Assembly (NCBI RefSeq): GCF_902364025.1
Contig: NZ_CABJCG010000012.1
Coordinates: 156,496-220,495, forward strand
Origin: Enterocloster lavalensis
GTDB taxonomy: Bacteria > Bacillota > Clostridia > Lachnospirales > Lachnospiraceae
DNA length: 64,000 nt
Direction: 5' to 3'
Shown piece by piece: positions 45,221-47,138 of the stretch. The first letter of the stretch is position 1, and the number at the start of each line of letters is the position of its first letter. Both the position numbers and the translations under genes were made by a program. The notes beneath the pieces are model-generated. The model had not been told where the DNA came from, searched no databases, and saw only the letters and a list, made by a program, of their open reading frames with translations.

Positions 45221-45808
45221 TCACCGCCGCCTCACAAACTCCCTGCCCTCGTAAATCCGCACCGGATTCCCCCGCTCCAGCCGGTTGTGCTCCATCCAGG
45301 CCAGCTCCTTCTCTCTGCGGGCGCACTGCAGGTCGCGGTCCGCCAGGATGTCGCACAGCCGGTTCAATGCAATCTGCTTATTCATGTGCTGGCTCCTGGC
45401 TTCCGTGGACACCACCGCGATGCCGGTAGGAATATGCACTACCCGCACGCCGGTCTCCACCTTGTTGACATTCTGGCCGCCCTTTCCGCCGCTGCGGAAG
45501 GTCTCGAAGCGCACCTGCATCTCCTTGCTGGTTCTGGGAACTTCTTCCATAATGCTGACGTCGATGTACCAATTTTTCCGTTTATGCTCCGGCCGGAGCG
45601 GGCTTTTGCACACCCAAAGCACGCTGCCCTCCAGCCCGGACAAGTCCGCCTCCGCCTCCAGCACGACAGAGGAGAATCCTCCCCTGCGCCCTTTGACGCC
45701 GCTTATCATCTGAATACCTTCCACCTCCCGCCGCAGCGCCTGATAAAACAGCCCCACGGCCAGCTCGCACTCCTCCGGCCCCTGGCCGGAACTAATCTGT
45801 ATTCTCAT
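45221..45808 (-). CDS. prfH: Peptide chain release factor-like protein PrfH
   Basis: A 195-residue RF-H. It has the catalytic GGQ loop in FRSGGKGGQNVNKVETGVRV but lacks the stop-codon-recognition domain of RF1/RF2. The ATG at 45808 follows AGGTGG. It lies directly after rtcB. PrfH-RtcB pairs are described as a ribosome rescue and repair system: PrfH releases peptide from ribosomes whose 16S decoding-centre rRNA has been cut, and RtcB then religates the RNA. Confidence 0.94.
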   Translation of the reverse strand: MRIQISSGQGPEECELAVGLFYQALRREVEGIQMISGVKGRRGGFSSVVLEAEADLSGLEGSVLWVCKSPLRPEHKRKNWYIDVSIMEEVPRTSKEMQVRFETFRSGGKGGQNVNKVETGVRVVHIPTGIAVVSTEARSQHMNKQIALNRLCDILADRDLQCARREKELAWMEHNRLERGNPVRIYEGREFVRRR

Positions 45809-45817
45809 ATCCGCCAC

Positions 45818-46891
45818 CTACCCTTTGAACGTAATCAGCGGACGCAGGGTGGCGACCACGCGGATGAGGCCGTATTCCAGCAGGGAATCGATCACCTGCT
45901 CCACGTTTTTGTATGCCTCGGGCGCTTCCGCAAACAGCAGGTTGGTGTCGTGACAGACCACATGGCTCTTATATTTGGTGCTGCGGATGGAATTGCGGTC
46001 GTATTTCTGGTCGATACGGCTTTTGCAAATGCTTCTGGCCCATTTCCGGCCCGCGCCGTGGGAGACGGAGTCCAGGGAAAACGCCGTGTCCTCCCCGGGC
46101 ATGCAGACATAGGTCAGGCTGCCCCGGGACCCGGGGATCACCACCGGCCCCTGTTTGGTGGACACGCTGCCCTTGCGGTGAAGCCAGCCCTCGGGCCGCC
46201 GCTCCACGTAATTGTGGCAGCTCTGAACCACCGGTACCACGGTGTCGTCCACCCCCAGATAATCCAGCAGCTTTTCAGCCACCGCCAGCCGGTTCCGGTC
46301 CGCCCACAAAAGGGCCCGGTCGTGCTCCGAACGATAAGCCAGAGCCTGCTCAGAGTCTTCCCGGATCCCCCCGGGATTATAAAACCGGGAGAGAATATCC
46401 TGGCCGTAGCCCCGGGAGCCGGAGTGCACCAGAAGGAATACCTGGCCGTCCATCAGCCCCAGCGCCTGGGCCATTTCCGGGTCCGGGGCATTTTCCAGGC
46501 ACTGAAACTCCGCAAAGTGATTGCCGGAACCTATGGTGCCGAAGTCCCGGATCGGGCACTCCTCCCCGTAGGGATTCCCGCTGGGGATATCGGACAGCTC
46601 CCGGATGGAATTCAGCCGGGTCACGCACCGCTCCACCTTGAAGCGTCCCCGGCGGACGCCGGTGGAAAACAGGCTCATGCCGCAGCCGATGTCGTTTCCA
46701 ATCAGGTGGGGATAAAACAGGCCCTGGCTCAAAACCGCCATGCCCACCGGGGTTTTTCCAGGATGGAGGTCCGGCAGGCCCACGGTTTTCACCACTCCGG
46801 GGAGGCGGCTCACGCCCGCCAGCTGGTCCTTGGCCGCCTGCTCCACCCAGTTTTTATGGTTGCTGATCAATATTAAATTTTCTTTCTCCAA
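45818..46891 (-). CDS. rtcB: RNA-splicing ligase RtcB (PrfH-associated type)
   Basis: A 357-residue ligase that joins 2',3'-cyclic phosphate (or 3'-P) and 5'-OH RNA ends with GTP and Mn2+. Motifs are LPDLHPGKTPVGMAVL, NDIGCGMSLF (Cys, metal), GTIGSGNHFAEFQ, LLVHSGSRGYG, VVQSCHNYVE, and SVSHGAGRKWAR with the guanylylated His. It is shorter than E. coli RtcB, as in the PrfH-linked clade. I prefer the TTG at 46891 because AAGGAG lies 7-8 bases upstream; the frame extends further but through leader sequence. Confidence 0.94.
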   Translation of the reverse strand: MEKENLILISNHKNWVEQAAKDQLAGVSRLPGVVKTVGLPDLHPGKTPVGMAVLSQGLFYPHLIGNDIGCGMSLFSTGVRRGRFKVERCVTRLNSIRELSDIPSGNPYGEECPIRDFGTIGSGNHFAEFQCLENAPDPEMAQALGLMDGQVFLLVHSGSRGYGQDILSRFYNPGGIREDSEQALAYRSEHDRALLWADRNRLAVAEKLLDYLGVDDTVVPVVQSCHNYVERRPEGWLHRKGSVSTKQGPVVIPGSRGSLTYVCMPGEDTAFSLDSVSHGAGRKWARSICKSRIDQKYDRNSIRSTKYKSHVVCHDTNLLFAEAPEAYKNVEQVIDSLLEYGLIRVVATLRPLITFKG

Positions 46892-47103
46892 ATCAAGTTC
46901 TCCTTCATAAGTCTCAGGGCCAGGTCCATTTCCCGAAAAAAAGGGTACAAAAAAACACGACAACGAGCCGTGTGCGAAAAAAGCCTTCTACACCTGTCCC
47001 TGTCAAAATTTACGTGGTTATTGAATTTTTACCTCTCTTTTACCGTTTGCCAACATAACAACCACTCCTTTTCTTATGAAGGACTCGGGTCCTTCTTGAT
47101 CTA
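46892..47103 (-). promoter_or_regulatory. rtcB leader with mutually exclusive pairings (translational attenuator-like)
   Basis: Three minus-strand segments can pair in two ways. Segment 1 (GAAGGAC, 47089-47095) and segment 2 (GTCCTTCATAAG, 47073-47084) form a 7-bp hairpin with a 4-base loop. Segment 2 also has an 11-base perfect match (TCCTTCATAAG) with segment 3 (CTTATGAAGGA, about 46901-46911), which contains the rtcB SD. A 12-codon upstream ORF with its own SD starts right after segment 2. Between them lies a short stem followed by T7 (about 46950-46970). Confidence 0.6.
47018..47056 (-). CDS. 12-codon upstream ORF in the rtcB leader
   Basis: ATG to TAA encoding MLANGKREVKIQ, with AAGGAG 8 bases upstream of the ATG. 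It lies 47 bases after the predicted transcription start and about 126 bases before the rtcB start. Its SD directly abuts the segment that can sequester the rtcB SD, so ribosome occupancy here should influence rtcB translation. Leader-peptide function is inferred from position. Confidence 0.55.
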   Translation of the reverse strand: MLANGKREVKIQ

Positions 47104-47109
47104 CGGTTT

Positions 47110-47138
47110 ACTATATACGGAAAATGGGGAAATGTCAA
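47110..47138 (-). promoter_or_regulatory. Promoter of the rtcB-prfH operon
   Basis: Minus-strand TTGACA and TATAGT, 17-base spacer. This is a sigma-70/A-type promoter; no -24/-12 element was found, unlike the sigma-54-driven rtcBA of E. coli. Confidence 0.8.

Follow-up and report, generated by a model that had tools for sequence, protein, structure and literature searches.

What turns on a ribosome-repair operon? RtcB2-PrfH protects Escherichia coli against the rRNA-cutting toxin colicin E3, according to the available text of PMC9223846. The question is raised here by an rtcB-prfH operon of Enterocloster lavalensis, which lies behind a short leader ORF in the window (the whole 64-kb stretch of DNA that was analysed). 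No trigger for RtcB2-PrfH operons in Clostridia and Enterobacteria was found in the literature searched nor, mostly at the level of search results, was leader control of rtcB-prfH in these groups; the words "leader" and "attenuat-" are absent from the available text of PMC1586002 and PMC9223846.

The operon and its leader

Promoter, leader ORF, P1 helix, terminator, rtcB and prfH are all on the minus strand of the window, and a PRK09588 RtcB-like gene is followed there by prfH. The rtcB gene (45818..46891, RtcB2 type) has a likely TTG start at 46891, and its product, of the RNA ligase RtcB family (PRK09588/TIGR03073), scores above both curated cut-offs; prfH, for peptide chain release factor H, occupies 45221..45817 (TIGR03072, 182 bits versus a cut-off of 166.65). 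The closest named relative is [Clostridium] asparagiforme, with an RtcB that is 97% identical. Closely 3' of prfH is a GNAT acetyltransferase gene (45174-44701, minus strand), and in E. coli the GNAT gene yafP precedes rtcB2. Elsewhere in the window there is a NiCo riboswitch (17185-17094, minus strand, 57 bits).

A consensus promoter and a 12-codon upstream ORF with a strong Shine-Dalgarno sequence (SD) had been claimed in the earlier note on this DNA, and both were found as described. The sigma-70 promoter, TTGACA-N17-TATAGT (47110..47138), matches the pattern exactly; allowing one mismatch, the pattern occurs seven times in 64 kb versus 0.30 expected. The transcript is expected to start near 47104-47101. 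The leader ORF, MLANGKREVKIQ, runs from an ATG at 47056 to a stop at 47018 (47018..47056, 12 codons plus stop, conserved) and is preceded by the SD AAGGAG (47070-47065), which is also seen in the alignment of the near leaders, i.e. the Enterocloster/Hungatella-type group (n = 11 including the window). Control by RtcR and sigma-54 was rejected, there being no sigma-54 promoter-like site upstream of the operon: with at most one mismatch the pattern occurs at five places in 64 kb versus 9.4 expected, and the nearest (41920-41905, minus strand) is downstream of the operon, ~5 kb from the leader.

Several segments of the leader are able to pair in alternative ways. Immediately 5' of the leader SD, all 11 nt of UCCUUCAUAAG (47083-47073) are complementary to CUUAUGAAGGA (46911-46901), in which the rtcB SD lies; this helix, P1, was followed in the sequence, in the alignment and by duplex tests. 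Alternatively, GUCCUUC can pair with GAAGGAC (47095-47089) in a 5' hairpin, GAAGGAC-CCGA-GUCCUUC (47078..47095), seen in the sequence and the 11-leader alignment. At codons -5/-4 before the leader stop is a GAGGUA element (47030..47035; GAGGUG or GAGGUA in most relatives), and a candidate hairpin present in the MFE structure joins GUGGUUG (47065-47059) to the post-stop AACCAC (47019-47014), spanning 47014..47065. Downstream follow the P3 5' strand GACAGGG (46998..47004, from the 11-leader alignment), whose CAGGG can pair in the window with CCCUG at 46919-46915 to enclose the terminator, and a candidate antiterminator, CAGGUGUA:CGCACaCGG (46968..46996; CUGGCGUA:UACGCaCGG in relatives), which is weak in the window and overlaps the terminator 5' arm. 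The predicted intrinsic terminator itself, ACACGGC-UCGUU-GUCGUGU followed by a U tract (46949..46973), came from terminator prediction and the alignment. A known RNA family was rejected as the identity of the leader: in Rfam the window leader gave no match up to E = 10, and the loci of 20 relatives gave none at gathering scores.

Conservation of the leader across rtcB2 loci

Relatives were taken from a scan of 84,980 species genomes, in which the best 80 of 555 confirmed were kept, and from three whole-genome searches. The resulting sample comprised 88 rtcB2 loci (numbered with the prefix L), window counted in; nine loci, all with an identical 600-nt core, were left out as copies. Operons were few in class- and family-level searches (7 of 391 and 3 of 397 genomes), and few rtcB2 loci were present in viral and phage collections (3, 1 and 1).

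By a pattern rule, a leader ORF with an SD and a downstream U tract was found at 36 of the 88 loci, the ORF having 10 (n = 2), 11 (n = 12), 12 (n = 18) or 14 codons (n = 4). With L055 included, a 10-14-codon leader ORF and a terminator precede rtcB at 37 of the 88; among the first 35 named loci (L031-L065) the leader is present in 29, 28 by the rule plus L055. In L055 the leader, MFVKIRISIEVLAP, lies ~660 nt upstream of rtcB together with terminator-like hairpins, and the ORF inserted between them (2691-2990, 99 residues) looks helix-turn-helix-like by eye. The alphaproteobacterial L078, with an 8-codon ORF, was picked up by the mechanical rule and excluded from the count as unlike the others. 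Carriers of the leader include [Clostridium] citroniae, [Clostridium] symbiosum, Hungatella, C. difficile, Formimonas, Petroclostridium, Faecalispora, C. neonatale, Anaerobacterium, Ruminiclostridium, Acetivibrio and Pseudobacteroides; the rows are not independent, 11 belonging to the near group and five being C. difficile-type. At 51 of the 88 loci, most of them outside the Clostridia (Proteobacteria, Myxococcota and other phyla), no such leader ORF was found by the criteria used.

Among 71 genomes the leader-ORF motif matched in seven, once in each and always at the rtcB2 locus from the whole-genome search, and the terminator motif matched in five, at five of these seven loci. The idea that the leader serves other genes was rejected, since in these 71 genomes both motifs match rtcB2 loci only. 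In L009 and L062 rtcB is interrupted and the leader still intact. The C. difficile-type loci (L040, L041, L042, L051 and L114) keep rtcB2 and the leader, with no prfH match within 1.5-3 kb downstream. The comparison with related Clostridia that had been suggested earlier was favourable to the idea of a leader, both the short ORF and the pairings being conserved.

Competing helices and the position of the ribosome

Pairing of one segment either with GAAGGAC or, over 11 perfect bases, with the rtcB SD had also been claimed, and was confirmed. The 11-mer alone is weak, with two places within one mismatch in 64 kb, a number reached by 19 of 100 shuffles, and the overall folding energy of the leader is ordinary (z -0.77 and -0.70). 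Tested against 500 shuffles as a local duplex between the stretch 5' of the leader SD and the rtcB start region, P1 gave p = 0.004 in the window and p values of 0.002-0.032 in all 11 near leaders. It is through this local duplex test and the comparison of leaders that the 11-mer becomes significant.

In the alignment of the 11 near leaders P1 is 99.2% paired. Two of its pairs are compensated, a C-G replaced by U-A and an A-U by G-C, perhaps in one event because both are in two Hungatella rows; pair counts here overstate independence because the near rows are related. The terminator stem is paired in 100% of counted cells, the 5' hairpin in 84.4%, the candidate antiterminator in 87.5% and P3 in 83.3%, with one compensated pair in each of the last three. 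For the 5' hairpin and antiterminator taken together the number of compensated pairs was not above that in shuffles (297 of 500 reach it), and two rows, which we take to be those of the window and the relative nearest to it, depart from the P3 register that was counted. A hairpin beside the U tract was found by scan in 34 of the 36 leaders; outside the scan, that of L048 was taken by eye, and the window terminator came from a separate prediction, the scan having given a larger surrounding hairpin.

Among the 25 other leaders the P1 duplex reached p < 0.05 in three only (L001, L046 and L057). In distant leaders a post-stop segment is the partner of the stretch at or just 5' of the leader SD, with p = 0.002 in the five C. 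difficile-type leaders and L037, and p < 0.05 in L001, L043, L054, L056, L057, L064, L115 and L116. This pairing was borderline in L061 (0.044 and 0.054 in two runs) and not significant in L038, L039 (0.068), L045, L046, L047, L048, L058, L059, L060 and L112, nor, as segment-1:segment-2 pairing, in the near group (p 0.13-0.75; window p = 0.132). Antiterminator duplexes were weaker, with p values of 0.012-0.068 in C. difficile-type leaders, 0.026 in L039, 0.046 in L037 (second terminator), 0.058-0.82 in other leaders and 0.651 in the window. Combined over 12 chosen representatives, post-stop pairing and antiterminator duplexes gave p = 7e-6 and 0.009, respectively, the cluster representatives for this and the other combined value below having been picked after the single values were known. 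Two candidate pairings were dropped: the covariation in L112, where the partner is the 3' arm of the terminator and not the 5' arm, and CACCUG:GAGGUG inside the ORF, because in those leaders CACCUG pairs better with CAGGUG, 5' of the leader SD.

For simulation of a stalled ribosome, the nucleotides that it would cover on the leader AUG were kept unpaired, the openness of the rtcB SD or the formation of the antiterminator was computed, and the upstream stretch was shuffled for comparison; the model takes no account of transcription kinetics, and a ribosome is represented in it simply by unpaired bases. The RNA was folded only up to before the terminator 3' arm, equilibrium folding with the whole terminator having failed to separate the states. 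In the window, openness of the rtcB SD rose from 0.20 to 0.70 with a ribosome at the leader AUG (p = 0.010, the minimum possible with 100 shuffles). The SD also opened in near leaders L032, L034 and L035 (p = 0.010), L031 (0.020) and L036 (0.050) and, short of significance, in L050 (0.069); in four of the 11 (L033, L062, L005 and L009) it did not. Of 20 other leaders tested, eight switched to the antiterminator with p < 0.05, namely L001, L037, L048, L057 and the C. difficile-type L040, L042, L051 and L114, and 12 showed no significant switch (L038, L039, L043, L045, L046, L054, L056, L060, L061, L064, L112 and L115). The five left out of the 25 were L041, L047, L058, L059 and L116; in unmasked, unshuffled folds, pairing at the AUG rises little or falls in L047, L054, L058, L059 and L116, and it rises in L041. 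Over 11 cluster representatives, chosen as described above, the stall simulation gave a combined p = 2e-4.

The ribosome was then placed at successive codons in 15 of the 36 leaders, all with a prior rise at the AUG. Opening of P1 was limited to codon 1 in six of seven near leaders (L034 also at 3-5), and antiterminators formed with the ribosome at codons 1 to 3-5, were nearly gone by 6 and were absent at ~6-9, that of L057 returning at codons 10-11. What opens the SD in the model is a ribosome held at the leader start; failed translation of the leader, the signal in one form of the earlier claim, would leave the SD of the window buried (0.20 open when no ribosome is placed).

A pure transcription attenuator as in Pseudomonas armZ, in which the terminator is the sole switch and P1 a by-product of the conserved rtcB SD and 5' stretch, would explain the hairpin and U tract of these leaders, the completely paired stem in the near group and the lack of significance of P1 in 22 of 25 distant leaders; the published PA5471.1 model, in the part available, likewise has segments 3:4 as a terminator. 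Against it, P1 beats the shuffles in every near leader and is 99.2% paired there with two compensated pairs, loss of P1 in shuffles removes the opening of the SD (p = 0.010), and the window antiterminator is weak (p = 0.651), and we consider this explanation unlikely. Of the translational attenuator proposed earlier, attenuation by a leader ORF with alternative pairings is supported; the conserved predicted terminator (46973-46949) had been overlooked.

The leader peptides are highly variable in sequence, and what is conserved is the nucleotide run NNGGT. Of the 36 leader ORFs, all but L038 and L039 have NNG-GTG, NNG-GTA or NNG-GCG at codons -5/-4; 34 have G as the third base of codon -5, and 32 have Val at codon -4. 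Glu at codon -5 is always encoded by GAG (25 of 25, and also in L055); the GAG share of Glu codons is 0-35% in low-GC rtcB genes of the same loci and 35-86% in the near group, and with one factor per cluster (7 clusters) the product of mean fractions is 1.6e-4. GAGGUGA is complementary to the 16S anti-SD region, and it sits 8 nt from the P-site codon when the stop codon occupies the A site. Because 8 nt is a usual SD distance, GAGGUG may tether the terminating ribosome.

These data also bear on erm-type peptide-specific stalling, whereby the nascent leader peptide together with a drug would arrest the ribosome at a fixed codon near the end of the ORF. A short ORF and the frequent Val at codon -4 would suit such arrest, and a helix hiding a downstream SD with an alternative partner, an erm-type feature, is present as P1 and the 5' hairpin. 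However, an arrest peptide conserved at the amino-acid level, the other such feature, is absent, the RNA run being conserved instead, and the simulated switches require a ribosome at codons 1 to 5 (only L057 also at 10-11). Peptide-specific stalling is accordingly thought improbable.

Leaders of other designs occur at the same gene. In L095, L096 and L104 (Clostridia) and L091 (whose record reads Lutibacter sp. B2, a Bacteroidota name), the end of an 11-14-codon ORF mimics the rtcB SD (GAGAGAA), and an intervening segment, UUCUCUC, is able to pair with the ORF end or the rtcB SD (2:3 pairing, p 0.007-0.064; 3:4 pairing, p 0.005-0.063). In simulations of L091 and L096 the rtcB SD was open when free or with a ribosome at the AUG and closed with a ribosome at the stop, behaviour that L095 did not show. 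No prfH match was found in ~2.4-3 kb downstream of these four SD-mimic loci. Enterobacterial leader ORFs of 13-15 codons are present in E. coli (L121, 1306-1350), a Klebsiella IncC plasmid (L122, 1022-1060) and Proteus (L123, 1047-1091), and rtcB2 loci on viral contigs (L118 and L119) have the same leader type, with erm-like competing pairings. Over these five loci (L125, nearly a copy of L121, was not counted) the combined p values were 3e-6 for 1:2 (ORF SD with its own coding part), 2e-4 for 2:3 (coding part with downstream segment) and 0.007, mainly from L118, for 3:4 (that segment with the rtcB start); the simulated effect of a stall on the rtcB SD was small or absent in all five. The rtcB-prfH genes of L122 are on a conjugative plasmid and adjoin sul1, and both E. 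coli chromosomal copies examined (L126 and L127) carry pseudogene flags. Constitutive expression, in which the terminator would leak, the ORF would be no more than a spacer or a leftover that is still translated, and P1 would damp expression to a fixed degree, would be compatible with the ordinary folding energy and with the 51 loci that have no such leader ORF, but is very improbable given that distant Clostridia keep the ORF, the terminator and the pairings and that Enterobacteria have other leader ORFs at this gene.

Proposed mechanism and known systems

On the sequence and model evidence, the leader is probably an attenuator that senses the position of the ribosome and thereby controls the rtcB-prfH ribosome-repair operon. 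In the basal state, ribosomes would traverse the 12-codon leader ORF and depart, and the terminator would form; in transcripts that read through, P1 would bury the rtcB SD, giving low expression. Under inducing conditions, a ribosome able to initiate but not to elongate, such as one whose 16S decoding centre has been cleaved by colicin E3, would halt on the first codon or codons, and its footprint would cover the leader-SD stretch, blocking P1 and opening the rtcB SD. In part of the relatives, the same ribosome position would free the post-ORF segment for pairing with the terminator 5' arm, so that transcription would pass. Transcription attenuation is probably the older output, because the terminator is kept in distant leaders and P1 is significant in only three of 25. 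Sequence and folding analyses show the parts, their conservation, covariation in some helices and a flip of the window fold on masking of the start codon; the direction of switching, ribosome damage as its signal and a part for GAGGUG are inferences.

Colicin-E3-cut ribosomes are described in the available text of PMC2615495 as little affected in initiation and impaired in A-site binding: dipeptide formation is 15 times slower, pentapeptide reaches about 15%, and by the authors' extrapolation essentially nothing is made beyond ~8 residues. Older reports cited in the same paper conflict over initiation by such ribosomes. On our model, the repair genes would be induced by the very ribosomes that cannot get beyond the first codons; a ribosome making a few peptide bonds would escape the P1 group, because the model switches there mainly at codon 1.

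A wider reading, which we offer tentatively and would not call likely, is that leader ORFs of this kind measure whether a ribosome is intact, like a ruler: expression would be ON as long as it is caught within codons 1 to 5 and OFF after it has moved on, the 10-15 codons of the ORFs exceeding the ~8-residue limit of E3-cut ribosomes. Clostridia (by the terminator design and the SD-mimic design) and Enterobacteria would have reached such a ruler several times, rRNA-repair operons without sigma-54 control would commonly be induced by the damaged ribosome, the terminating ribosome would be retained by pairing of its anti-SD with GAGGUG, and induction of Pseudomonas armZ would be this response redirected towards drug efflux. 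Should the mechanism proposed above hold, the signal would be the damaged ribosome itself, without a protein sensor, drug induction of Pseudomonas ArmZ and ribosome repair would be linked as one response, and the leader would provide a reporter, easy to test, for damage to ribosomes in gut Clostridia and E. coli.

Known systems share some of these features. In erm-type translational attenuators there is a short ORF, and an SD is concealed or exposed by alternative pairings. The window leader resembles these in its short ORF and in the alternative pairings at the SD, and differs from them in having a terminator and in giving no evidence for a drug-specific arrest peptide. The uORFC-6-1 motif of Bacillales, as described in the available text of PMC8632094, is a structured leader ORF 5' of hflX (stalled-ribosome rescue) for which a response to stalling was proposed; it precedes a different gene, and its leader contains a motif known from antibiotic-resistance leader peptides. 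In E. coli toiL-topAI, tetracycline stalls the ribosome on the start codon of the leader (the same is proposed for retapamulin), and the stalled ribosome breaks a hairpin hiding the downstream ribosome-binding site (PMC12121999, available in part). Here too there is a leader ORF, and in the window a start-codon stall is modelled to free a downstream SD, whereas toiL-topAI is a toxin-antitoxin operon with Rho-dependent termination.

The closest counterpart is in Pseudomonas aeruginosa. PA5471 (ArmZ) is RtcB-like (cluster PRK09588) and shares one message with the release-factor gene prfH (PA5470), and E. coli ykfJ, a truncated PA5471 homologue, is induced by 4-azaleucine (available parts of PMC3516279, PMC12057347, PMC13041342, PMC3884212 and PMC3575510). 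The 13-residue leader ORF PA5471.1 lies ~250 bp upstream of armZ; its full translation leads to the terminator, and armZ is expressed when drugs that target the ribosome cause stalling or when cca or suhB is lost (available parts of PMC3516279, PMC12057347 and PMC13041342). The earlier note, which knew of no described leader control for this operon outside sigma-54/RtcR, is corrected by this. Like PA5471.1-armZ-prfH, the window has a PRK09588 RtcB gene with prfH and a short leader ORF with an SD, a predicted intrinsic terminator lying between leader ORF and rtcB; unlike it, as judged from the published description of the Pseudomonas leader, the window has clostridial leader sequences and pairings and an extra helix, P1, that buries the rtcB SD. 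Leader control of an rtcB-prfH operon is therefore already known from Pseudomonas PA5471.1, and it is the clostridial version that is new.
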